39,046 nucleotides of DNA from Pseudomonadales bacterium (GTDB lineage Bacteria; Pseudomonadota; Gammaproteobacteria; Pseudomonadales; Azotimanducaceae), in assembly GCA_019090615.1 (NCBI GenBank), contig JAHRVQ010000029.1, forward strand, positions 1 to 39,046, in the 5' to 3' direction. Within the stretch, counting starts at the first letter, position 1. Each line of letters opens with the position of its first letter. Of this stretch, positions 25,124-39,046 are shown piece after piece. A program made the translations under genes and the position numbers. The notes below the pieces were generated by a model, which worked only from the letters and a program-made list of their open reading frames with translations, had not been told where the DNA came from and made no database searches.

Positions 25124-25370
25124 CGACTTATCACTCCGCTTATATGGCCATTTTTAGATCTAAGTATCAAACCAGCAATTGCTGCTTTTTTCTTTGGTCT
25201 TGCCGGTTTTTAAAAATTTGAAACTAGAATCAGGATATGCTTGCCGCTGACAACATTCTAGCCAAAATCGGACCTCTAGCGAAAAATCAATGCCTCGCCG
25301 CCACTCAAAGAACCCACAGCATTACGCCACGAAGGCGTATTTTTTTGGCAGGCAGTATATAATTGCAGCA

Positions 25371-26780
25371 ATGAATCATTCGTTTGGCTTAGTTGACAAC
25401 CCACAACAGGTATTTAATAACCTGCCTGAAACACGACCCTGCTGTATCAGTTTTGAATTTTCAATAGCGCAACATTACCTCAGCCAGGGGGATAAAAGAG
25501 TCTTGCGAGTATTATGCCTGCTAACAAACGAGGACTGTGCGTTAACAATAGTACCAGGCTGCGAATTCAGCATCGGCAATGCAGCGCCAGCGGCGACATT
25601 CGCCGCCGCATTAGAATTATGGCAGGTGAAAAGCGTTAATCTGAATCAACCCTGGTTGTTGCAAACCATTGGGATAGACAAACCCTGGGGCACAGAAATC
25701 TGGTATACCGGTATCGAGGCCAGAGGCATCTGTACCGTAAATGGTATTCCTTTGCCCTGGCTGGGGCTGTGTCTAAATGAATCTATCTACGGTAATTGTG
25801 CAGAAAAAGATCGGCACCAGGACCCTATTTTACTTAAAATTTTAGCGACTCGACCAGAACAGGACTACGGCGACCTGTATTTTGAAGTACACCAGGAAAA
25901 AACCGAAGTTTATATTGTCACCGACATTGATCACACGGTCTGGCCCTCGGGCATTGGCCAGATCCGCGTTGGCTTTAACCCCCATAAACAAAAAGAGTAC
26001 AGCTCGGTAGAGGAATTTAAGACCGCCTACCTTGGGGCAGTAACATCCTATCAAAAGATCCGCAATCAAATTGATCAACGACTTGATGAAAAAAAGTTAG
26101 CTGCTGGGTTCAGTCTTTCAGAACCAGTCGCAACCCACCAGCTTGAGCAATGGCAACTGAGCCTTCCTGATTCAATGATTCGATCAGAAGCAACACTAAA
26201 ACAACAAATGTATGCTTTTACTGCCATGCAATCATTACGGCCTGGCGACGTTATTCGTATCGAACCTTTTACCCCGCATTCACTGCAGCATGGTATTCGG
26301 GTGGTAGAATTTCAGACCGCACACTATGAACGCCACATTCTGTCTTTTACGCAAAAGGTACTAACGCAAAATCATTGGGATACTCAGCAAGGATTAAAAA
26401 ACGTCCGCCTTACCCCCCAAGAATCATCGGCGTTAAAAGTCACTGCCGAATCCTCACAGAATACAGTTGAACTGGCCGCTGAATTTGACCAGTTTTCAGT
26501 TTATCGTATTACCTTGCCGGTTGAGGGTATTTATACTCACAATCTCAGCCAATACAGCCTGGTTATCGGCATTACAGGCCAAATCATCGTTAATGATGCA
26601 TCTGTAACATCTGAACAAGGGTATTTTATTCCCGCCGCTGCGAGCCAACCCGTCACCTTCAAAAATCTTAGTAATCAAACTGGCATAGTACTCTTTGCTG
26701 TACCTTCCAGCACAGCAATTTCCAGTACAACAATTACCAGTACAACAAAGAGTACCGACCACCAGCATTCACCCAACTGA
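25371..26780 (+). CDS. Phosphomannose-isomerase-like cupin protein, function uncertain
   Basis: The ATG at 25371 gives 469 residues; an upstream in-frame ATG at 25290 would add 27 basic residues that do not look like protein. The middle contains KPWGTEIWYTG and the second half RPGDVIRIEPFTPHSLQHGIRVVEFQTAHYERHI, which resemble the metal-binding cupin core of type I mannose-6-phosphate isomerases (the His of TPH and the EFQ strand). A second cupin-like segment (IYTHNLSQYSLVIGITGQIIVN) follows near the end, as in isomerases with a C-terminal barrel. The N-terminal 100 or so residues are unlike standard ManA. I would call it sugar-phosphate-isomerase-like, substrate unknown. A Ser/Thr-rich tail is encoded by a 15-bp repeat. 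Confidence 0.65.
   Translation: MNHSFGLVDNPQQVFNNLPETRPCCISFEFSIAQHYLSQGDKRVLRVLCLLTNEDCALTIVPGCEFSIGNAAPAATFAAALELWQVKSVNLNQPWLLQTIGIDKPWGTEIWYTGIEARGICTVNGIPLPWLGLCLNESIYGNCAEKDRHQDPILLKILATRPEQDYGDLYFEVHQEKTEVYIVTDIDHTVWPSGIGQIRVGFNPHKQKEYSSVEEFKTAYLGAVTSYQKIRNQIDQRLDEKKLAAGFSLSEPVATHQLEQWQLSLPDSMIRSEATLKQQMYAFTAMQSLRPGDVIRIEPFTPHSLQHGIRVVEFQTAHYERHILSFTQKVLTQNHWDTQQGLKNVRLTPQESSALKVTAESSQNTVELAAEFDQFSVYRITLPVEGIYTHNLSQYSLVIGITGQIIVNDASVTSEQGYFIPAAASQPVTFKNLSNQTGIVLFAVPSSTAISSTTITSTTKSTDHQHSPN
26705..26749 (+). repeat. Three 15-bp tandem repeats in the 3' end of the cupin gene
   Basis: Units at 26705-26719, 26720-26734 and 26735-26749 share the pattern TTCCAGTACAACAAT with few changes. 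They encode SSTAI, SSTTI and TSTTK, an unstructured Ser/Thr tail. Length is a multiple of three, so copy-number change would preserve the frame. Confidence 0.75.
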
Positions 26781-26802: not shown

Positions 26803-27783
26803 TTAGGCTGGCAATAACGCACTCACTGCATCACGCTCTTCTTTAAGTTCAGTTTCTGTTTCAGTCATCTTTTTGCGGCTAAATGATGAGATATTCTGAC
26901 CCTGCACGATACTCCAGTCGCCACCATCACAAGTACATGGAAATGAATAGATAAGGCCTTCCGCGATACCATAACTACCATCGGAATAAACCCCCATGCT
27001 AACGATATCGCCGTTCGAGCCAAGCGCCCAGTCGCGCATATGTTCAATGGCCGCATTCGCAGCTGAGGCGGCGCTACTCAAACCGCGGGCTTTAATAATT
27101 GCTGCGCCACGCTGTTGTACAGTAGGAATAAATTCATCTTCCACCCAGGCTTGATCCACTAGAGTCAAAGCCTCGGTACCTGCTACTGTGGTTTGAGTAA
27201 GATCAGGGTATTGCGTGGCGGAATGGTTACCCCAAATGGCCAGACCTTTCACTTCAGTCACATGTTTGCCGGTTTTTTGTGCAATCTGGGTGGTAGCCCG
27301 ATTATGATCCAGGCGTGTCATGGCAGTAAATTGCCTTGGATCAAGATCAGGTGCGTTACGCTGGGCTATCAGGCTATTGGTATTCGCTGGATTACCAACC
27401 ACCAGTACTTTCACATTTTTTGCAGCAGTATCGTTCAGGGCCTTGCCCTGTACTGAGAAAATAGCTGCATTGGCTTCAAGCAGGTCTTTTCTTTCCATGC
27501 CCGGTCCCCGCGGACGTGAACCCACTAGCAAGGCATAATCAACATCCTTAAAGGCTACTTCAGGTTGATCTGTCTGAATAATATTCTGAACCAGAGGGAA
27601 TGCGCAGTCGTCTAATTCCATTACCACGCCGCTCAGCGCTTCCATTGCAGGGGGAATTTCGAGCAATTGTAAAATTACGGGTTGATCCAGGCCTAACATT
27701 TGACCTGATGCTATTCTGAACAGGAGAGAATAGCTAATTTGACCTGCGGCGCCTGTAATTGCGACTCGTACGGGCTGTTTCAT
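26803..27783 (-). CDS. mdh: Malate dehydrogenase (NAD-dependent, type 2)
   Basis: Mdh interconverts malate and oxaloacetate in the citric acid cycle. The nucleotide-binding strand [21 protein letters not shown], the substrate-binding arginines in [24 protein letters not shown], the conserved TRLDHNRA block and the catalytic histidine in [11 protein letters not shown] are all present, and the sequence follows the type found in many proteobacteria and plant cytosol (about 326 residues). The ATG at 27783 is chosen because AAGGA lies 7 bases upstream; the ATG at 27786 (4-base spacing) is possible, and the one at 27798 is disfavoured since it precedes the ribosome-binding site. It converges with the cupin gene, only 22 bp apart. 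Confidence 0.95.
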
Positions 27784-27820
27784 CATGATTCCTTGCAAGG
27801 TTGGTTCGAAAAAGGGCCTG

Positions 27821-27851
27821 ATTGTAACAAATAAAAAGACATTTCCCTCAA
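27821..27851 (-). promoter_or_regulatory. Weak promoter candidate for mdh
   Basis: On the minus strand, TTGAGG (27846-27851) and TACAAT (27821-27826) are spaced by 19 bp, about 38 bases before the mdh start. The -10 is good, the spacing long. Confidence 0.3.
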
Positions 27852-28199
27852 CAATTAGTCTTTTAGTCTTTCTGCTTGTTAATTAACCCACTGTAACTGT
27901 TTGATTTTCCACCAGGGCTCATTAATCGCCAATCATTCTGCGAGCATGCACCTCAGCATACTAATTAAATCGCTCCTACCAGGCGCTTCCCTCTGCGGTT
28001 AAAAACCCTTCTTTGGACTGTATTTAGCCCTGGATTAATCGACTTGCGCTATCAGGATAGAAGCGGCATTGCCATGCGCACTAATCCTTAAAAGGCTGAA
28101 AATCGCCTGAAACCCACTACTTTCCCTCTATAAGCTCAAAATAGCCTTTAAAAACAACGTATTATATTGAGCATTCCAATCGCTCATAGGTCTAAAAAC
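27852..28199. other. Intergenic region between mdh and the gltB promoter
   Basis: About 350 bp with no reading frame of protein-like composition and no RNA gene that I recognise. It is AT-rich with several CAAT- and TTAAT-like words and may hold activator sites for gltB or mdh, but no convincing palindromic operator was found. Confidence 0.5.
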
Positions 28200-28227
28200 T
28201 TGACTTTAAGCCGTTTTTTGGTATTGT
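28200..28227 (+). promoter_or_regulatory. Candidate sigma-70 promoter for the gltB leader
   Basis: TTGACT (28200-28205) and TATTGT (28222-28227) with 16-bp spacing match the sigma-70 consensus at 5/6 and 4/6 positions. A start near 28234 would begin the transcript just ahead of the first leader hairpin, about 300 bases upstream of gltB. Confidence 0.5.
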
Positions 28228-28240
28228 TTTCGCCCCGTTC

Positions 28241-28515
28241 GAAGTGTGCTGTACTCAGCAATACTTCATTTTGAACGAAATCGCATAAAGATGTCTCTTA
28301 GCGTCGCTGGTTACTATTTTTGAGCCCAACTGCATATACAACGGCTTTAGCGACGAAAATATGTGCAGGTAACGAGCACCGTTAAAATACCTGAATCGAC
28401 AATAGTAAAACCTGGACGATATAGTCCAGGGTGATTTACTGTCGCTTCAGATAGCGCTTTTGTATAGGATTTGTACAATCCGGGGCTTCTGATGGGGCCT
28501 TGTTTGGCAAGACCC
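28241..28515 (+). ncRNA. Highly structured 5' leader of gltBD, candidate cis-regulatory RNA
   Basis: Six hairpins lie almost end to end. (1) 28241-28267: GAAGT and TGCTG arms with CAGCA and ACTTC. (2) 28302-28355: CGTCGCT with AGCGACG, with an inner GAGCC/GGCTT. (3) 28366-28393: CAGGTA with TACCTG, inner AACG/CGTT. (4) 28393-28448: a 20-bp interrupted stem made of GAA, CGAC, AGTAAA, CCTGGAC and their complements around GATATA. (5) 28467-28481: GGATT/AATCC. (6) 28494-28515: GGG..CTTG/CAAG.CCC. An alternative pairing (28331-28338 with 28360-28367) excludes hairpins 2 and 3, as in switching RNAs. No long T-run follows, so simple attenuation is not obvious. I recognise no known riboswitch, 6S, SRP, tmRNA or RNase P consensus. 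Confidence 0.6.
28291..28323 (+). CDS. Possible 10-codon leader peptide in the gltB leader
   Basis: An ATG at 28291 opens a 10-codon frame (MSLSVAGYYF) ending in TGA at 28321-28323, after a weak AAAG. Ribosomes translating it would cover the 5' arm of hairpin 2. Such a frame could easily occur by chance. Confidence 0.2.
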   Translation: MSLSVAGYYF

Positions 28516-28537
28516 AGTTGAATTGAATAGGTTATAA

Positions 28538-31500
28538 ATGACTAGCAGCAGTATGAAAAAGACAGGCGGATTGCCGAATAAAATTGGCCTTTACGACCCC
28601 ATCAATGAGAAGGATTCATGCGGTGTCGGTTTTGTAGCCCATATCAAAGGTAAGCCGAGCCATCAGATTATGCTCGATGCCTACCATATCAATAGTCGTA
28701 TGGATCATCGTGGCGGCTGTGGCTTTGAGGAAAATACCGGCGATGGCGCAGGAATTTTAACCGCATTACCGCATACATTTTTCTCAAAAATTGCCGCAGC
28801 TGAGGGCTTTGTGCTTCCTGCAGCTGGCAAATATGCCGTCGGCAATATATTTTTACCTCAGGATGAAGCAGAACGTGCTACCTGCAAAGCAGCCATTCTG
28901 AGCACAATCAGTGCTGAAGGTCAGCAATTTATCGCCTGGCGAACAGTGCCCATAGATCCCAATAAAGCCGACGTTGGACCCGCTGCAAGAACAGCTCAAC
29001 CAGTGATTGAACAACTGTTTATTGGCTCTACAGCAGCTGATGAAGCTACCTTTGAGCGTATTCTCTACATTATTCGCCGTCGTTTCACCGTACTGCTACG
29101 TCGCGGTTCTAATTTAAGCCAAAGTCATCTGTTTTACGCCTGCTCACTCTCCAGCCGCGTCATCGTTTATAAGGGCATGTTAACCCCAGCACAATTGTTC
29201 CCGTTTTATACCGATCTAGAAAATGTCGGATACGAAACCCATTTGGCAATGGTGCATTCTCGCTTTAGTACCAATACCTTCCCTTCCTGGGATCGTGCGC
29301 AACCCAATCGATTTATGAGCCATAACGGCGAAATAAACACCCTTCGTGGCAATATAAATGCCATGTCGTCCCGAGAAGGGGTGGTGAAATCTGATCTATT
29401 TGGCGACGATATCAAGAAATTATTCCCAATTGTCGAACCCGATTGTTCTGATTCAGGTAGTTTTGACAATGTGCTTGAGTTTTTACTCATGTCCGGCCGT
29501 ACCCTACAGGAAGCGGTGATGATGATGATTCCCGAGGCCTGGCAATCAGATACTAATATGTCTCAGGAAAAACGTGATTTTTACGCCTTTAATTCCACCT
29601 TGATGGAACCCTGGGATGGTCCAGCCTCTATTGTTTTTACCGATGGCCGCTATATTGGCGCCGTACTGGACCGCAACGGCCTCCGGCCAAGCCGTTACTA
29701 CATTACCAATGACGACAGGGTCATCATGGCATCCGAAGTCGGTGTTTTACCGGTTGACCCAGAAACTGTTATTGCCAAGGGTCGGTTACAACCCGGCAAG
29801 ATGTTCCTGATTGACTTTGACGCAGGACGTATGATCCCTGATGAAGAACTAAAACATGACTTTTCTACACGTCGCCCCTATGGCGACTGGTTAAAAAAGC
29901 AGCAGCTTGAACTCAGTGAGATACCTGTATCGGCCCGCGCAGCAGATCAACCCAATTTTGACCCAACAACTTTGATTCCACGCATGCAGTCATTTGGATT
30001 TACCGTAGAATCTATGCAATTCATGTTAATTCCTATGGTCACAGAGGCCCGTGACCCCCTTGGCTCTATGGGTAATGATGCCGCCCTTGCCTGCCTGTCT
30101 GATAAATCTCGAATGATTTATGATTATTTTAAACAGTTATTTGCTCAGGTTACTAACCCAGCCATTGATTCCATCCGCGAAGAAATTGTTATGTCTCTGG
30201 CCTGCTTTATCGGCCCGGAAGGCAATCTACTAGAAACCACAGAGCAGCATGCGCATCGGCTGAAAATCCCGCATCCGATTTTATCTAACGATGAACTCAA
30301 CAACCTGAAACAAATGGATCATCGTGGCTGGAAAACCTGCACCATTGACATTACTTTCGAAGCAGCAGAGGGCCACACTGGCATGATGCAGGCACTGGAC
30401 CGAATCTGTGCAGAAGCCTCAAAAGCCATCAAGGACAATTATTCGCTGATCATATTATCCGACCGCAATATATCCAAACAGCGTATGGCGATAAGTTCTT
30501 TGATTGCCTGTGGCGGTGTCCATCATCATCTTAACGCCCGTCACGAACGCACCCAGATTGGCCTGATTCTCGAAACCGGCGAAGCCCGTGAAGTTCATCA
30601 TCATTGTTTATGTGTTGGTTATGGTGCTGACGCCATTAATCCTTATCTGGCCTTTGAATCACTTTGGCAAGCCAAAGCTGACAATCTTATCGATGCCAAA
30701 CACTACCCAACCGATGCCAGCATCGTCACCGCGTATAAAAAAGCGGTTGCCAAAGGTATGTTAAAAGTCATGGCAAAAATGGGTATTTCGACCCTGCAAT
30801 CCTATAAGGGCGCACAAATATTTGAAGCGGTGGGGCTTGCCTCAGATATCATCGAACGCTGTTTTGTCGGTACCGCAAGCCGCGTCGAAGGCATAAATTT
30901 TGATGTCCTGTTCCAGGAAATGATTCAGCGCCATGAAATCGGTTATCCGCAGCGCAACGCCAATTTGATACCCTTGTTACCTAACCCTGGCGACTTCCAT
31001 TTTCGCCGCGAAGGTGACGCGCATATGTGGGACCCTACTGCCATCGCTTATCTTCAGGAAGCCTCTCGGTCTAACAATCAGGAAGCCTATGATGCCTTCG
31101 CCAAACATACTGACGAAGAAACCACACGGCGCTGTACCTTCCGCGGCCTGTTGTCATTTGTTGACGATGCCAATGGTGGAGCTATTGAACTCGACCAGGT
31201 TCAGCCAGCCAGTGAAATAGTTAAAAGATTCTGTACCGGTGCGATGAGCTTTGGTTCCATATCCGAAGAAAGTCATGAATCACTTGCAGTTGCCATGAAT
31301 AGAATAGGCGGCAAGTCCAATACCGGCGAAGGCGGTGAGGCAGAGAAACGCTTTGAACCCATGGCCAACGGTGATTCAAAACGATCCGCTATCAAACAGG
31401 TCGCATCTGGCCGATTCGGGGTCACCATCTGGTACCTGGCGAATGCTGACGAATTACAAATTAAAATCATCCAGGGTGCCAAACCCGGTGAAGGCGGTGA

Positions 31501-33118
31501 ACTACCAGGCGGTAAGGTTGACCAACAGATTGCCGACATCCGGCATTCTACACCTGGCGTCGGGCTAATCAGCCCACCGCCACACCACGATATCTATTCT
31601 ATCGAAGATATGGCGCAGCTTATCCACGATTTAAAGAATGCCAATCCCTCAGCACGTATCAGCGTAAAGCTGGGTTCAGAAATTGGTATTGGCACTATTG
31701 CAGCCGGTGTCACCAAAGCCAAAGCAGACCATCTGGTTATTGCCGGCCATGACGGCGGCACAGGTGCCTCCGCACTCACCTCAATCAAACATGCTGGGTT
31801 ACCCTGGGAACTAGGTTTAACGGAAACCCATCAGACCCTGGTAATGAACAATTTACGCTCCCGGGTATATCTACAAACCGACGGCCAGTTAAAAACCGGC
31901 CGTGATGTGGCCATTGCAGCCCTATTAGGCGCAGAAGAGTTTGGCTTTGCCACCGCCCCGTTGATTACGCTTGGCTGCATTATGATGCGAAAATGCCATC
32001 TGAATACCTGCCCCGTTGGGATCGCAACTCAGGATCCCGAGTTGCGTAAAAAATTCACCGGTAAACCAGAAAATGTCGTTAATTATCTCTTTATGGTGGC
32101 CGAAGACTTACGCAAAATTATGGCTCAACTTGGCTTTAAGACCATCAACGAAATGGTCGGCAGAGTTGATGCTTTAGAAATGGATAACGCCATTGATCAC
32201 TGGAAAGCCAATGGGCTTGATTTCAGCAAGATACTGACGCCAGCAAAAGTAATATTTGAAAATACTGAAACCTATCGTACTATTCCGCAAAATCATGGCC
32301 TCGAAAAGGCACTAGATAATGAACTCATAAGGCTCGCCAAACCAGCGCTGGACTCAGGCCAGAAAGTTGATATAGAACTACCCATTATCAATATTAATCG
32401 AGTAGTTGGCACTACCCTGTCTCATGAGCTAGCAAAGGCCACTAAAGGTAAACTACTTCCTGATGATACCATCAACATTAAGCTCAACGGTTCAGCCGGT
32501 CAAAGCCTGGGCGCATTTTTAGCCACAGGCATTAGCATTGCGGTTGAAGGTGATGCCAATGACTATGTTGGCAAAGGTTTATCAGGTGGGAAAATATCTA
32601 TTTATCCGCCCGCTATCAGCCCTTTTAAAGCGGAAGAAAATGTCCTTATTGGTAACGTTGTATTATATGGTGCCACCGGCGGCGAAGCCTATTTCAGAGG
32701 GGTTGCAGCAGAACGCTTCTGCGTTCGAAATAGTGGTGCCCGAGCCGTTGTTGAAGGCATCGGTGATCATGGCTGCGAATATATGACAGGCGGCCGCGTC
32801 GCTATCCTTGGTACAACCGGTAGAAACTTTGGTGCCGGCATGAGTGGCGGCATTGCTTATGTGTGGGATAAACAGGGCGATTTTAAAAACCAGTGCAATA
32901 TGGGCACCATTGAACTGGAGACACTTGAAGCAGCTGGCGATATTAGCGAATTAAAAACCATGCTCGAAAAACATAACAAACATACCGGCTCAACTGTTGC
33001 ACAGCATATTTTGGACAACTGGCAAAATGAACTGAAATCATTTGTTAAAGTCATGCCGACTGACTATAAACGGGTTCTGCAGGCACTAGCGGCGGCTAAA
33101 AAAGAAAATGCAGCATAA
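28538..33118 (+). CDS. gltB: Glutamate synthase (NADPH) large subunit
   Basis: GltB, with GltD, converts 2-oxoglutarate and glutamine to two glutamates. The 1526-residue protein has the glutaminase domain starting at Cys28 (EKDSCGVGF), the nucleophile exposed after removal of a 27-residue propeptide. The FMN/synthase domain contains GAKPGEGGELPGGKV, HDGGTGASALTSIKHAGLPW and the 3Fe-4S ligands Cys1147, Cys1153 and Cys1158 in the C-x5-C-x4-C pattern. The C-terminal glycine-rich beta-helix domain is complete (GGKISIYPP, NSGARAVVEGIGDHGCEYMTGG). Length and order are those of the proteobacterial enzyme. It is preceded by an unusually long structured leader and followed, across 172 bp, by gltD. Confidence 0.97.
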   Translation: MTSSSMKKTGGLPNKIGLYDPINEKDSCGVGFVAHIKGKPSHQIMLDAYHINSRMDHRGGCGFEENTGDGAGILTALPHTFFSKIAAAEGFVLPAAGKYAVGNIFLPQDEAERATCKAAILSTISAEGQQFIAWRTVPIDPNKADVGPAARTAQPVIEQLFIGSTAADEATFERILYIIRRRFTVLLRRGSNLSQSHLFYACSLSSRVIVYKGMLTPAQLFPFYTDLENVGYETHLAMVHSRFSTNTFPSWDRAQPNRFMSHNGEINTLRGNINAMSSREGVVKSDLFGDDIKKLFPIVEPDCSDSGSFDNVLEFLLMSGRTLQEAVMMMIPEAWQSDTNMSQEKRDFYAFNSTLMEPWDGPASIVFTDGRYIGAVLDRNGLRPSRYYITNDDRVIMASEVGVLPVDPETVIAKGRLQPGKMFLIDFDAGRMIPDEELKHDFSTRRPYGDWLKKQQLELSEIPVSARAADQPNFDPTTLIPRMQSFGFTVESMQFMLIPMVTEARDPLGSMGNDAALACLSDKSRMIYDYFKQLFAQVTNPAIDSIREEIVMSLACFIGPEGNLLETTEQHAHRLKIPHPILSNDELNNLKQMDHRGWKTCTIDITFEAAEGHTGMMQALDRICAEASKAIKDNYSLIILSDRNISKQRMAISSLIACGGVHHHLNARHERTQIGLILETGEAREVHHHCLCVGYGADAINPYLAFESLWQAKADNLIDAKHYPTDASIVTAYKKAVAKGMLKVMAKMGISTLQSYKGAQIFEAVGLASDIIERCFVGTASRVEGINFDVLFQEMIQRHEIGYPQRNANLIPLLPNPGDFHFRREGDAHMWDPTAIAYLQEASRSNNQEAYDAFAKHTDEETTRRCTFRGLLSFVDDANGGAIELDQVQPASEIVKRFCTGAMSFGSISEESHESLAVAMNRIGGKSNTGEGGEAEKRFEPMANGDSKRSAIKQVASGRFGVTIWYLANADELQIKIIQGAKPGEGGELPGGKVDQQIADIRHSTPGVGLISPPPHHDIYSIEDMAQLIHDLKNANPSARISVKLGSEIGIGTIAAGVTKAKADHLVIAGHDGGTGASALTSIKHAGLPWELGLTETHQTLVMNNLRSRVYLQTDGQLKTGRDVAIAALLGAEEFGFATAPLITLGCIMMRKCHLNTCPVGIATQDPELRKKFTGKPENVVNYLFMVAEDLRKIMAQLGFKTINEMVGRVDALEMDNAIDHWKANGLDFSKILTPAKVIFENTETYRTIPQNHGLEKALDNELIRLAKPALDSGQKVDIELPIININRVVGTTLSHELAKATKGKLLPDDTINIKLNGSAGQSLGAFLATGISIAVEGDANDYVGKGLSGGKISIYPPAISPFKAEENVLIGNVVLYGATGGEAYFRGVAAERFCVRNSGARAVVEGIGDHGCEYMTGGRVAILGTTGRNFGAGMSGGIAYVWDKQGDFKNQCNMGTIELETLEAAGDISELKTMLEKHNKHTGSTVAQHILDNWQNELKSFVKVMPTDYKRVLQALAAAKKENAA

Positions 33119-33161
33119 TTCGCTAAACGTCGGCCTTTGAAAAATAACTCCTTCAACATAG

Positions 33162-33245
33162 ATCGCTCTTTAATTAGTATGCTCGAAAGAACACAGGCTC
33201 CGAATAAATACGGGCTAATCAGCAAGCACTAATAACAAGAGCGAT
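33162..33245. promoter_or_regulatory. Long hairpin between gltB and gltD
   Basis: ATCGCTCTT (33162-33170) pairs perfectly with AAGAGCGAT (33237-33245), and ATTAGT (33173-33178) with ACTAAT (33228-33233), making a long stem around a 49-base loop. No T-run follows, so it would not terminate transcription by itself. It may stabilise the upstream mRNA or set the GltB:GltD ratio. It ends 45 bases before the gltD ATG. Confidence 0.6.
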
Positions 33246-33290
33246 TAAACAGTCCAATCAATTTGGTACAGGCAGTAGTAAGAGAAAATT

Positions 33291-34763
33291 ATGGGTAAAA
33301 CCACCGGGTTTAAAGAATTTGATAGAGTAGTAGCGCCATACCGCGACCCTGCAGTACGGCTAGTGGATTACAAGGAAATCTATACCGATCACAATGACAC
33401 TGAATTACAAACTCAGGGTGCCCGCTGTATGGATTGTGGGGTGCCTTTTTGCCAGTCCATCAATACTGCTAACGCAGCCCCGCCAGCCTCGTATGGCTGC
33501 CCAGTCTACAATCTAATTCCTGAATGGAATGACCTGGTATACCGGGGTCGCTGGCGTGATGCCCTTGAACGTCTGCATAAAACCAATAATTTCCCAGAAT
33601 TTACTGGTCGGGTTTGCCCAGCTCCCTGTGAAGGCTCCTGTGTACTGGGCATTACCGACCCACCTGTCAGCATTAAAAATATTGAATGTGCCATTGTAGA
33701 CAAAGGTTTTGCTGAAGGCTGGATTGTGCCTGAACCACCGACACAAAGAAGCGGTAAAAAAATAGCCATCGTTGGCTCAGGGCCCGCAGGCCTTGCTGCC
33801 GCAGCGCAACTGAACAAAGCCGGCCACCAGGTTAGCGTTTATGAACGGGCTGATCGGATTGGCGGATTGCTAATGTATGGCATACCTAATATGAAGCTGG
33901 ATAAAGACATCGTCAGTCGCAGGGTTGAAGTCCTACGACAGGAAGGTGTCGAATTTATCGTCAATGCCGATGTCGGCAAAGATATCGATATAAAAGAACT
34001 ATTAGATAGCAACGATGCACTACTATTTACCACCGGCTCAACCGTACCTCGGGATCTACCAATACCCGGCCGTGAAGGCGCTGGGGTGCATTTTGCGATG
34101 GAATTTCTCCTGCCTAATACTAAAAGCCTGTTGGATTCAAAACACAATGACGGTCAGTTTATTTCTGCCAAAGGCAAGGACGTTATTGTTATTGGTGGCG
34201 GCGATACCGGCACTGACTGTATCGGCACATCACTACGCCACCAGTGTAAATCTCTGGTCAATTTTGAAGTATTAGCCAAACCACCGCTCACCCGCGCAGA
34301 TGACAGTCCCTGGCCAATTGGTTTACCACGGGTCTACAAGGTGGATTACGGCCATGCTGAGGCAAGCCATCAATATGGTGATGACCCACGAGTATATTCT
34401 GTCATGAGCAAAGAATTTATACGCGACGAAAACAATCAGCTAACCGGTGTAATCACCGTGAATATCGATGATAAATTTCAGGAAATAGCTGGCACAGAAA
34501 AAACCTGGCCAGCGGATCTTATCTTCCTTTCTATGGGTTTTCTCGGCCCCGAACATTATGCCTCTGAACCCGTTGGCATTAACTATGATGAGCGAAGCAA
34601 TTATCAGGCAGTAAAAGGCAGCTACAAAACTTCAACAGCAAAAGTTTATGCTGCTGGCGATTGTCGTGGCGGTCAGTCACTCGTAGTACGAGCAATCAAT
34701 GAAGGTCGCGAAGCCGCAAGGGAAATCGATCGTGAATTAATGGGCAGTACTTTACTGCCTTAA
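33291..34763 (+). CDS. gltD: Glutamate synthase (NADPH) small subunit
   Basis: GltD takes electrons from NADPH through FAD and iron-sulfur clusters to GltB. The 490-residue protein has the N-terminal cysteine clusters: Cys46, Cys49 and Cys54 in CMDCGVPFC, Cys70, then Cys109, Cys113 and Cys117 in CPAPCEGSC, matching the 4Fe-4S ligand pattern. The FAD motif GSGPAG is at 162-167 and the NADPH motif GGGDTG at 302-307. The C-terminal [25 protein letters not shown] closes the FAD site. Co-transcription with gltB is likely despite the 172-bp gap. It ends before a strong bidirectional terminator. Confidence 0.96.
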
Positions 34764-34895: not shown

Positions 34896-37800
34896 TTAGA
34901 ACTGACAGTTGAATGTAATCGAACTTATCTCCCCATTAGGTGCCACAGCGGTTATTTCCACCGGTCCCGAACCACTGCCTAAGGCAGGATCTCGAATCAA
35001 ACTAACAAAGATGCTGGTAATAGCTGTACTATTTGTGCTGCCAAGCGTAAAGCCAGGCGTATTACCAATCAGACAACCACCTGCTGCCGACGCTGCATTA
35101 AATACCGTGCCTGCTGCCAGATGAGCATTATTGATATCAGAGACATCGATGATAACCCCCCCTGAACCTGCGGTTAATGTCGACGTATCACCTACCTGAG
35201 GCGCAACCTGCGTATCAGCATGACCGACAGTAAATGCTGTACCCTGCGCGATTGTCTGGGCCAGATTATCTAACTCATCCGATGCAGAAATATAGGAACC
35301 AGAGGCGATATTTAAATCAACACCATTTATATATTCACCATTAACACTACGCAGCCCGAATGCCGAGCCCGTATTGGAAAAAATAATCACTGCCTGGCGT
35401 CGAATACTAACCAGGTTCCGTGTACAAAACTGGCTAGTCGCCTCAACACAGGGCACAGTATTATTATCACAAACCTCCGTCCTGTCGCTGACACTTTTTT
35501 CACACAGAGAACCATTATAGATACCATTACCCAAATCAAACTGACCATTCTGATTAAAGTCAATAAACCGATCTTCATCACCACCTACCTGATAACAATT
35601 GCCTAAAACTTCGGTGGTCGGTGACAGCGGAGAATTAGGCCCATAACAGTTTCGACTAGTAAGGTCACGGGATGCATCAACAGTTGGGTCACCATTACCA
35701 AACACTGAATCTTCGTTATAGTCAACGACCGCTTCTGTCAAATCCACAAAAGGTTCACCAAAACTATACAAACCATCGCCATTGGTATCGATAAAACTCT
35801 CTTCGCCCACAGCGAAGGCCAAAATTGTGGAACGACTTCCATATAGTTGCCCCAGCCCACCTAAATAACCTGAACTAATCGCGCCACCCTGGCTAGTGGA
35901 ACCTGCCCGACAGGGCACACCCGTACGTCCTCTAAAGGGTGCCGTTGCGACGCCAGGCGCGGAGATCAAATGGGTAGTATCACTGCTATTATCTTCATCT
36001 GGAAAAGCCCTGGTATAAGTAATTCTTAAATTGGTTTCGCCAGAACAGTTGTCGGTAACGCAGGTTATTCCTGACCCATCAGCATCAACCAGATAATCCG
36101 TACCGAGCACTAATATCTCATCCTCAGCACCCAGTTCCGGCAAGATGCCCTTCTCCACACGATTAATGGCGTTGACAGTATAAAAAGTATCGCCAGCACC
36201 CGTTGCATTATCAATTATCACTACTTCGTCAAAAATCAGTTCTGAAGGGCAGGCGTTAAAAATATTTTGCTGAGTAAGGTTAGTATCCAGCGGGCCCCTG
36301 GGGTTAGCAGAGGTTAAGTTAACGGTACACAACCCATTAACCGTCTCACAGGAAGATACGATTTGACCGAACTCAGAGGTAAACTGTACTGTATCGTCTA
36401 CGGGGTTATTAAATTGATCGGCCAAGAAAACAGTGAAGGTAACCGTTTCACCATCAAGATCACCGCCTTGAAAGTTAAGATTATCAGCCGCCAGAGTAAA
36501 ACTATCCTGGTCCGCAATACCGCTATTAATGGACAGATTGCCTGACAGGGTAACAAGTGTGGTTGCACCTTCTGGTATATCATCAAAATCTGTTTTATCG
36601 CCGTCGTCGTCACGGTCCACATCCAGACTAGCCCGCACACGCACCGTTGTAGCGATAAACCCTGCTTCAAGAATCGCTGTCGCAAACCCATTTTCATCAG
36701 TAATATCTGACGCTGTCTCAAGTTTAATGCCACCTACTGTGGAAGTGAGTGAAAACAACACATTTTCATTTTCTGCTGGTGCACCAAATACATCTAATAC
36801 CTGAAACACCACAAATGCTGTTGAATTACCGCCTGATTCCTTAATAGAGATATCTGTAGTTGTCACATTGTTAGAATCAGTTACGCCACTAAATACGATA
36901 GCACCAATGTTTGCTGGTAGTACTGAAACAGTGCCCGTGGCTGTTTGTCCGGTGCTTGCTTCTGTTGCGGTGACGGTATCGGGGCCAACACAACCGTCAG
37001 CCTGATAATCCCCAGTCACTATACCCAGCGCGTTGGGCGCATCGTCGGAAATTTTGGCTAATGGTATAGCCGCACTTGAGCAACCAGAGCCAAACGTCAC
37101 GTCGATATCAGAAACAAAAGCACCACCAGAATCCTGGATCACCAGTCCAATATTCGTTGAACCACCGGCCGAAACCGTTGTTTCCGCAATATTAATTGTG
37201 CCAGCAGTAAACACCGTACCCGCACCGCAATCAGAGAAACTTGTACCGCCGCTACAGGTACCTATCTGCAATCCAGCAGCACTCACTTCAAAATTAATCA
37301 CCAGCTGGGTATCACCCACAACCACAGTAATTGCACCCGTACCTGAGTTCGCATCGGTAGCAAGTACAAACTCAATGGCGCCTTCGGAATCGCTTAAAGC
37401 GATGATGGTTTGTGCGGGCGTTTCACCTGGCAAATTTACTGTAACCCCGGTACCCACTTCATTAGAATTAAAAGTAGTGGTGATAGTCGCAGTCCTGAGC
37501 GGCAAATCTACCGCGCCTTCCTGCACCGTAATTCGCACACTGGCACTATCTTCTTTGGTTAGGGTATTGGTTTGATTACCTGGGGTTGCATCCGTAAAGA
37601 TGGAGCTTAAGGTAATAACTGCGTCACCCGCATTACCATTGGTTGCAAAATTCAGCGAGCGCGTATCAAAAGTTGCATTACCAATAACCACTGTCGCCGT
37701 AGCAACACCTGCCCCTGGCACACTGCCGGCATTTAATGAAACTGACGCTATACCATCACTATTGGTCAGTGCTAAGCCATTGATCGGAAACACATCACCA

Positions 37801-39046
37801 ATACCATTAGTTGAAAACTGTATAATAGTATCAGCCACTGGCTGACCTAAAGCATCCACCAGGTTGGCCTGCAATATGGCTGGATTATTCGCATCAACCT
37901 TACAATTAGCCGCTACACAGCCATTAGTTAGATTGGTAAAAAAATCTGCCCCGTTTACCGCCGAGCGAACAGTTAAGGTTAAACCCAGATTACTACTACC
38001 CACACCCTGAAAGGCAGCATCACCATCAGTAGCAAAAGTTATTGCACCATCTGCGGGTGAAGATAACGCCGCACCAGCAACTGATGTTGATGCAGAAATA
38101 GAACCAAACCCCTGGGTTGTACCCGCCAGCAAATTGGTTGTTGCCTGACCACTGACATTGGTGATATCGGTGGTGGTACTTAAAACACCATCACCATTAT
38201 TAACAAAATTAACAATAGCACCTAATACCGGTGCACCAGCGGCATCAATCACTGTCGCAGTCACTACTACAGGTGCCGCATTACTGACATTAGTATTAGG
38301 AATGCCAGAAGGTATTGATAAACCAATTGTAGCAACAGCATCTCCCAGACTAATAAAGGGAACCGGCTCAGCTGTGATGGTTTCACTCCCAGAAACGATA
38401 GAGGCGTTAATTTGACCACCACCGGCATTAGTGCCGGCCAGGACCGTAATAGTAGCAATACCCGTCGCGTTGGTGCCGGTAGATACTGCGCCACTGGCAG
38501 GGCTCAACAAACCAACGTTAGTGGTAAAGGTCACCACGGCCTGGTTAACGCCATTGCCATTGGCGTCCGTTACCGTCACTGAAGCTATACCAATATTATC
38601 TCGGCCGACCGCGTTAGAATTATCCGGGGTGGAAAGTGAAACAGCGCTAACTTTTAGAACATTCGAACCGCTGATTGTTTCCAGGCCATCACTTTGAATA
38701 CCCACTGTGTTGCTGGTAATGGTATTTCCTTCAAATTCTACAGATGCAGAAATATTAGCCGCAGCCTCTACCGTCCCCGCGGTTAAACGAATCTCCGCAA
38801 TACCGCCAGCTGCCGTTAAAACAGTACCTGAAACGGGCGTAAGTACCCCAGCCCCGGTGGTAAACGTAACAACCTGGCCAACAACTGCTGCATTATTTGC
38901 CGCAAGTAATATCGCCTGAACAGTCACCGGCGTATTACCAGATACATTATTGGTATTCGCCCCGGCGGCATTAGTAACGCTCAAGGTGAGCGTGGGTGTG
39001 GCAGGTGTTTCCCCACCGTCGGTCTGCCCTGCGCCTGGAGATGAGC
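34896..39046 (-). CDS. Giant multi-domain Ig-like (Big-type) surface protein or lipoprotein, 5' end missing
   Basis: The reverse-strand frame runs from the stop at 34896 to the right edge and stays open, giving at least 1382 residues. It contains about eight repeated units of roughly 100 residues, each with the bacterial Ig-like (Big_1 / invasin) pattern: VTFTT..GVLTP, a GIA..-type strand and a terminal TVTA-type strand. The sequence is rich in Thr, Val, Ala, Gly and Asn, poor in Cys and Lys. A linker of Gly, Thr, Pro and Ser at the edge suggests the start lies close by, perhaps as a lipoprotein. Acidic DxNxDG-like loops in the last third (e.g. DTNGDGLYSFGE, DFNQNGQFDLG) could bind calcium. 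It ends in FNCQF with no recognised sorting signal. Adhesion or matrix function is likely; the first codon visible as M elsewhere would be an internal TTG. Confidence 0.8.
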   Translation of the reverse strand, partial: SSPGAGQTDGGETPATPTLTLSVTNAAGANTNNVSGNTPVTVQAILLAANNAAVVGQVVTFTTGAGVLTPVSGTVLTAAGGIAEIRLTAGTVEAAANISASVEFEGNTITSNTVGIQSDGLETISGSNVLKVSAVSLSTPDNSNAVGRDNIGIASVTVTDANGNGVNQAVVTFTTNVGLLSPASGAVSTGTNATGIATITVLAGTNAGGGQINASIVSGSETITAEPVPFISLGDAVATIGLSIPSGIPNTNVSNAAPVVVTATVIDAAGAPVLGAIVNFVNNGDGVLSTTTDITNVSGQATTNLLAGTTQGFGSISASTSVAGAALSSPADGAITFATDGDAAFQGVGSSNLGLTLTVRSAVNGADFFTNLTNGCVAANCKVDANNPAILQANLVDALGQPVADTIIQFSTNGIGDVFPINGLALTNSDGIASVSLNAGSVPGAGVATATVVIGNATFDTRSLNFATNGNAGDAVITLSSIFTDATPGNQTNTLTKEDSASVRITVQEGAVDLPLRTATITTTFNSNEVGTGVTVNLPGETPAQTIIALSDSEGAIEFVLATDANSGTGAITVVVGDTQLVINFEVSAAGLQIGTCSGGTSFSDCGAGTVFTAGTINIAETTVSAGGSTNIGLVIQDSGGAFVSDIDVTFGSGCSSAAIPLAKISDDAPNALGIVTGDYQADGCVGPDTVTATEASTGQTATGTVSVLPANIGAIVFSGVTDSNNVTTTDISIKESGGNSTAFVVFQVLDVFGAPAENENVLFSLTSTVGGIKLETASDITDENGFATAILEAGFIATTVRVRASLDVDRDDDGDKTDFDDIPEGATTLVTLSGNLSINSGIADQDSFTLAADNLNFQGGDLDGETVTFTVFLADQFNNPVDDTVQFTSEFGQIVSSCETVNGLCTVNLTSANPRGPLDTNLTQQNIFNACPSELIFDEVVIIDNATGAGDTFYTVNAINRVEKGILPELGAEDEILVLGTDYLVDADGSGITCVTDNCSGETNLRITYTRAFPDEDNSSDTTHLISAPGVATAPFRGRTGVPCRAGSTSQGGAISSGYLGGLGQLYGSRSTILAFAVGEESFIDTNGDGLYSFGEPFVDLTEAVVDYNEDSVFGNGDPTVDASRDLTSRNCYGPNSPLSPTTEVLGNCYQVGGDEDRFIDFNQNGQFDLGNGIYNGSLCEKSVSDRTEVCDNNTVPCVEATSQFCTRNLVSIRRQAVIIFSNTGSAFGLRSVNGEYINGVDLNIASGSYISASDELDNLAQTIAQGTAFTVGHADTQVAPQVGDTSTLTAGSGGVIIDVSDINNAHLAAGTVFNAASAAGGCLIGNTPGFTLGSTNSTAITSIFVSLIRDPALGSGSGPVEITAVAPNGEISSITFNCQF

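Follow-up and report, generated by a model that had tools for sequence, protein, structure and literature searches.

Glutamate synthase is central to nitrogen assimilation, and the question raised by the present locus is whether the genes for this enzyme are preceded by a structured RNA leader and, if so, what such a leader may do. The window, which is the whole stretch of 39,046 nucleotides that was analysed, comes from a draft genome of 4.88 Mb in 92 contigs. On its plus strand it encodes the glutamate synthase large subunit, gltB (28538..33118, identified with Pfam), followed by the small subunit, gltD (33291..34763), in which Pfam detects Fer4_20 and pyridine nucleotide-disulphide oxidoreductase domains; the name gltD is given on the basis of these domains and of the position after gltB. 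The start codon of gltB is the ATG at 28538, with a Shine-Dalgarno-like AGG (28529..28531, plus strand), read from the sequence, 6 nt ahead of it, and the divergent gene at 26803-27798 has a Pfam match to lactate/malate dehydrogenase. The closest named gltB relatives are records from Pseudomonadales, the OM182 clade and Pseudohongiella. The GltB protein of the window's group (28538-33118) is apparently of a distinct type; its N-terminal part is 52-77% identical within its own family (43% in one genome), and in the other families of the order identity is mostly roughly 33-46%, a few of them reaching 56-71%.

The first-pass annotation had placed a sigma-70-like promoter just before the leader, and a promoter of this type is indeed found at 28200..28227 on the plus strand (-35 TTGACT, a 16-bp spacer ending in TGG, -10 TATTGT), which would belong to the extended -10 class. 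A scan over 1 kb returned two promoter-like sites, including that at 28200, where 2.0 are expected by chance, and the support for this promoter comes from its conservation and not from its match to the consensus. When 12 or more matches over 16 positions and a spacer of 16 are required, 91 of the 98 upstream regions taken from related gltB genes retain the promoter as compared with 8 of 294 shuffles, bearing in mind that the pattern was derived from the window itself and that the regions counted are related to each other. The sample consisted of 100 distinct gltB upstream regions, from which L072 and L083 were dropped as they have insufficient upstream sequence; among the seven that failed the criterion, L010 has its promoter further upstream. 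This conservation is restricted to the nearer relatives, since none of 40 more distant upstream regions from the window's own family scores 13 or more. In the wider check to which these 40 belong, made on 54 further regions with slightly more permissive scoring, five reach this score, all of them among L114-L127, several of whose leaders are identical to loci already counted. The promoter is part of a conserved upstream regulatory block (28139..28232, plus strand), which is 75-78% identical to the equivalent place in the congeners L004, L005 and L006.

As the promoter precedes the gltB ATG at this distance, the predicted untranslated leader is about 300 nt long (28234..28537, plus strand), its start site being placed from the promoter position. 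The fold of 28236-28537 has -93.4 kcal/mol, corresponding to z = -4.16, and none of 100 shuffles is equally low. A folding scan of the whole window, in which each strand was covered by 130 stretches of 302 nt and every stretch compared with 40 shuffles, gives the lowest z at 28201-28502 on both strands (-5.0 on the plus and -4.9 on the minus strand), the values for 28236-28537 in the scan being -3.9 on the plus and -5.65 on the minus strand. Clearly, the leader structure exceeds chance, and the multi-hairpin leader of about 300 nt proposed earlier ahead of gltBD is confirmed as the best-folding stretch of the window. Both strands fold well and therefore the signal consists mostly of clean inverted repeats; folding energy alone is no proof of RNA function and cannot tell which strand is the relevant one.

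The 5'-terminal hairpin, P1 (28236..28277, plus strand), comprises an outer stem CGUUCGAAGUG/CAUUUUGAACG (p 0.64) and an apical stem UGCUG/CAGCA (p 0.94), and its outer part is lost when the fold starts at 28231, GCCCC pairing instead with a downstream GGGGC. A putative small and weak hairpin, P2 (GCAU-AAAG-AUGU; 28283..28294, plus strand), lies at the site of the second hairpin of the relatives; it is present in the MFE structure, absent from the centroid, and poorly lined up in the alignment of the window with its relatives. On the same strand there follow a long central hairpin (28298..28385) with a dominant helix 28330-28338/28360-28368 (p = 0.95), an interrupted hairpin of about 20 bp (28391..28450) whose core at 28408-28443 is conserved in L005 and L006, and the hairpins UUGUAUA/UGUACAA (28460..28478, p = 0.82) and UGGG..CUUGU/GCAAG..CCCA (28493..28516, p = 0.50-0.69). 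The interrupted 20-bp stem of the earlier description can thus be drawn, and its inner helix CCUGGAC/GUCCAGG is predicted with p = 0.97, but the outer helices stay near 0.40 if folding begins at 28236 and reach high pairing probabilities if it begins at 28231, which makes the outer half sensitive to the ends chosen for the transcript. In fact, moving the start of the fold from 28236 to 28231 leaves the inner helices stable in both cases and shifts the outer ones.

Within the genus, the leaders have z values of -4.26 (window), -3.04 (L016), -2.49 (L005), -2.24 (L004) and -0.85 (L006), meaning that four of five lie below -2; in the same order, the upstream controls give -0.31, 0.88, 1.5, -0.17 and -0.5, and the coding controls -1.91, 1.03, -3.56, -0.4 and -1.73. 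In the 91 regions with a promoter, leader length behind it ranges from 35 to 373 nt (median 217). Excluding those shorter than 100 nt, the remaining 86 leaders have a mean folding z of -0.60, as compared with -0.56 for coding and -0.37 for upstream controls, and the leaders of the wider group are therefore not unusually structured; only eight of the 86 have z < -2, four of them from the window's genus. The gltB leader evolves fast, and the covariation in all six stems that had been envisaged finds no support among the five genus members, whose leaders have diverged beyond alignment.

A part of the leader which can be followed between congeners is the hairpin core 28408-28443. It aligns to the leaders of L005 and L006 with scores of 36 and 38 against 22 +- 3 (1/300 and 0/300 shuffles as high, respectively) and 80% column identity, whereas local alignment yields no match in the congeners L004 and L016, for which 111/300 and 162/300 shuffles score as high. 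Manual reading of the folds reveals a double change in one pair (A-U to G-C) and single changes in two others (G-C to G-U and C-G to U-G). Being close relatives of one another, L005 and L006 count as one independent comparison, and the hairpins look homologous in two of the four congeners. A local match of L055 at 28461-28525 (9/300 shuffles, one of ten alignments) was taken as chance. Ten subgroup alignments in all span z values from -5.6 to 0.0: the window with L005 and L006 reaches -3.8, L008/L055/L085 and L100/L101/L102 have -0.6 and -0.7, and those made of R1-type (see below) and Pseudohongiella-type leaders have -5.6, -3.2, -2.7, -2.1, -1.5 and 0.0. An alignment of all five genus leaders (z -5.2) was not trusted given its 32% identity, and RNAalifold returned no pair when given 24 leaders from the neighbouring group.

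A further comparison is provided by a 63-nt 5' domain which L004, L008, L085, L055 and L029 have in common, in which a hairpin capped by a loop of the UAYC type is followed by another, [AG]CUC-CA[AC]AA-GAGU. In the hand-drawn structure 97.4% of cells pair and three of eight pairs have both partners changed; among 500 shuffles, 9 attain the covariation score and 49 the number of such pairs, and an alignment of three of the sequences has no excess structure (z -0.63). The covariance model seeded with these five relatives, R2, matches six of 206 genomes of the window's family, every time upstream of gltB. Of these matches, five come from the genomes of the seeds or have the very score of a seed; the remaining one, L010 (24 bits), was found independently, and its promoter lies at the expected place. 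The window is matched weakly at 28231-28295, in exact register (6.1 bits, E 0.027 in 381 nt, filters off), and this match goes unreported in a larger search of 105,736 bases. The loop of the 5' hairpin occurs in 15 of 32 leaders versus 5.3 +- 2.1 in shuffles (0/500), in a post hoc test on related leaders. Homology of P1 to the 5' hairpin of the relatives, which in related genera lies equally far from the promoter, has weak support from these comparisons. Between the conserved 5' domain and gltB, the L010 locus also carries, at about 1066-1254, tandemly repeated units that resemble ACCGCACATCTTG and are partly N.

On balance, we lean towards considering that gltBD mRNA has a long structured 5' untranslated leader which acts on mRNA stability or translation. 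Such a leader would be transcribed from the extended -10 sigma-70 promoter and its RNA would act after transcription start: the 5'-terminal hairpin may protect the mRNA, and the hairpins near gltB may tune mRNA lifetime or ribosome loading, possibly via a protein or a small RNA, no intrinsic ligand switch being part of the proposed mechanism. The evidence that we count in its favour is the conservation of the promoter, the z of -4.16, the lowest z of the window scan, the genus z values, the hairpin 28408-28443 and the register of the R2 match; against it stand the z of the wider group, which is like that of coding sequence, the equally good antisense fold, the absence of hairpin 28408-28443 from L004 and L016, the low coding-control z within the genus, the silence of R2 in the larger search, the shifting outer helices, and the fact that promoter use is a prediction. 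In E. coli, an untranslated leader of gltBDF was reportedly described by Velazquez et al. (1991, J. Bacteriol.), and, like the leader of the window, it precedes gltB.

Much of the same evidence enters a second reading, less probable and yet to be taken seriously, according to which gltB simply has a long transcribed 5' UTR, devoid of a regulatory role, whose inverted repeats are specific to the lineage. The variation of leader length from 35 to 373 nt behind one and the same promoter, the coding-like z across the family and the similar folding of both strands are what one would expect from it, but four of five genus leaders remain structured despite sequence divergence, two congeners conserve one of the hairpins, and the leader is the strongest folding stretch of the window.

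We have also considered whether the leader may switch between two states. The pairing 28331-28338/28360-28367, which the first-pass annotation took for an alternative that would break other hairpins, does exist, but far from being a second choice it dominates the fold predicted for the full leader (p 0.90-0.97 per pair). When 28331-28338 is kept single-stranded the fold loses 1.8 kcal/mol, and prediction for transcripts that start at 28236 and grow in length shows a change of fold between end points 28360 and 28380. In this part the leader cannot be aligned with those of relatives. As the rival fold is only 1.8 kcal/mol worse and the fold of the growing transcript changes, a rearrangement during transcription is possible according to these models. 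A pattern scan of 27700-28700 gave one terminator-like site, on the minus strand, and no intrinsic terminator on the sense strand, and a switch via a terminator was discarded on this basis. The segment ACCUG (28389-28393) pairs with UAGGU (28528-28532) with p 0.55 when coding sequence is left out; sequestration of the Shine-Dalgarno sequence by this segment was rejected, as adding 50 nt of gltB moves the pairing to the first codons and the relatives have no common partner. Indeed, the two G of the window's Shine-Dalgarno sequence have low probabilities of being unpaired (0.34 and 0.14), their partners lying in the first gltB codons. A similar triplet is found in eight of nine relatives looked at, L004 having none, and its partners differ, being the first codons in L016 and L093, -12 to -14 in L006 and about -50 in L008, with none common to the nine. 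With regard to a leader-peptide attenuator, which would have a short conserved ORF with many Glu or Gln codons, one ORF of the leader was translated by eye; its product, MSLSVAGYYF (28291-28323), has neither residue.

Rfam 15 has no match at the gathering threshold in the window and none at E <= 5 in 27700-28700, which bears out the earlier impression that the leader is unlike a known RNA family. The same holds, in the window and in 27700-28700 (E <= 5), for the aptamer models of the glutamine riboswitch, named glnA RNA and Downstream-peptide in Rfam. Riboswitch aptamers are normally conserved much better than this leader, and no aptamer-like core can be aligned across all five genus leaders. 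That the leader is a riboswitch sensing a metabolite (glutamine, glutamate, 2-oxoglutarate or ammonium status) and switching gltBD translation or transcription is thus unlikely, considering also the empty Rfam search, the missing sense terminator and an ACCUG-UAGGU pairing that yields to the first codons and has different partners in relatives. To be set against this are the small energy gap to the competing fold, the changing fold of the growing transcript, the mostly paired Shine-Dalgarno G residues and the gene context, as a gltD riboswitch candidate and occasional glutamine riboswitches are reported before glutamate synthase genes elsewhere (PMC8632094). A two-state metabolite-sensing RNA is possible, without support from conservation.

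The candidate just mentioned, the gltD motif (SRC-18-1), is the closest published system to the window's leader in the open-access literature searched. It is frequently preceded by a predicted promoter, a possible RBS-occluding hairpin coming afterwards (PMC8632094). Both lie directly upstream of a glutamate synthase gene and, frequently so in the case of the motif, behind a predicted promoter; however, the representatives of the motif in sequenced organisms are only Selenomonadales and Veillonellales and it is located before gltD. For E. coli gltBDF, an antisense candidate is listed in PMC3175480, and in open-access literature searched for motif RNAs, riboswitches and leaders of gltB (PMC3175480 and PMC8124236 included) no account of a gltB leader RNA came up.

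It is very unlikely that the hairpins belong to the DNA level, as binding sites or remnants of repeat elements, and are not RNA elements, since, although folding is equal on both strands (antisense z -5.65), a 388-base query finds no second genomic copy at E <= 1e-3, a search which short repeats could escape, and by manual reading the helices 28236-28246/28267-28277 and 28330-28338/28360-28368 have G-U pairs in the sense strand only.

A distinct scenario is found in the neighbouring family f44, which has Pseudohongiella-type leaders, and whose gltB leaders hold a conserved element of about 116 nt, R1. The R1 model (14 seed sequences, 116 positions) matches 43 of 119 f44 genomes at E <= 1e-3, many of these being seed genomes. 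At E < 1e-11 there are 34 genomes, all of one genus (g98), and at each of the 30 loci fetched from these strong matches the element lies just upstream of gltB. In 38 aligned matches (36 distinct, seeds included; e.g. L070:1315-1429) 86.3% of cells pair and 11 of 15 pairs are changed on both sides. The both-side changes amount to 31 cells against 14.9 +- 3.4 in shuffles (0/500), which overstate the significance because the alignment is fitted to the model, the seeds served to draw the structure and the sequences are relatives of each other. Slid controls, with covariation of 0.03-0.10 versus 0.28, agree with the structure, and a mutual-information ranking of all R1 column pairs does not place the drawn pairs on top. 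Rfam assigns no family at threshold to the loci of 20 relatives, R1 carriers included, and a permissive scan of L070 gives one chance-level match, snR10 (10.8 bits, threshold 70). The f44 gltB leaders carry a better-conserved covarying RNA element than the leader of the window, and one which is new to Rfam.

The window itself was rejected as a member of R1, the best score in 28200-28560 with filters off being 1.5 bits (at 28522-28549), and the congeners L004, L005, L006 and L016 have no R1 match. In the window's family R1 matches four of 206 genomes, weakly (E 2.6e-4 to 8.4e-4), and in G001 and G004 on contigs other than that of gltB; a match on L084 (10.2 bits, E 0.2) was discarded as weak and located upstream of the promoter. 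R1 and the leader of the window are alike in the gene they precede, gltB, in promoter type and in position within the leader, and unlike in that the window has no R1 match. It would be a speculative step, and one we consider improbable, to regard the gltB leaders of the two neighbouring Pseudomonadales families as descending from one ancestral nitrogen-status cis-regulatory RNA, whose R1 core would have been kept in the neighbouring family and which, in the window's genus, would have been assembled anew out of hairpins particular to the lineage, with the promoter ahead of it remaining the same. The leader of the window and above all R1 provide concrete sequences for laboratory probing of ligand or protein binding.

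Some additional observations concern these loci. A long palindrome is found within an R1-type leader (L058:1200-1467; leader z = -8.6), where it is apparently tolerated in a loop. In the window, the 172-nt gap between gltB and gltD (33119-33290) also folds better than shuffles (z = -3.2). The ORF at 25290-26780 is without Pfam match at E 0.001, and a minus-strand ORF of 1362 aa (34896-38984) has four stretches matching Big_1 bacterial Ig-like domains.
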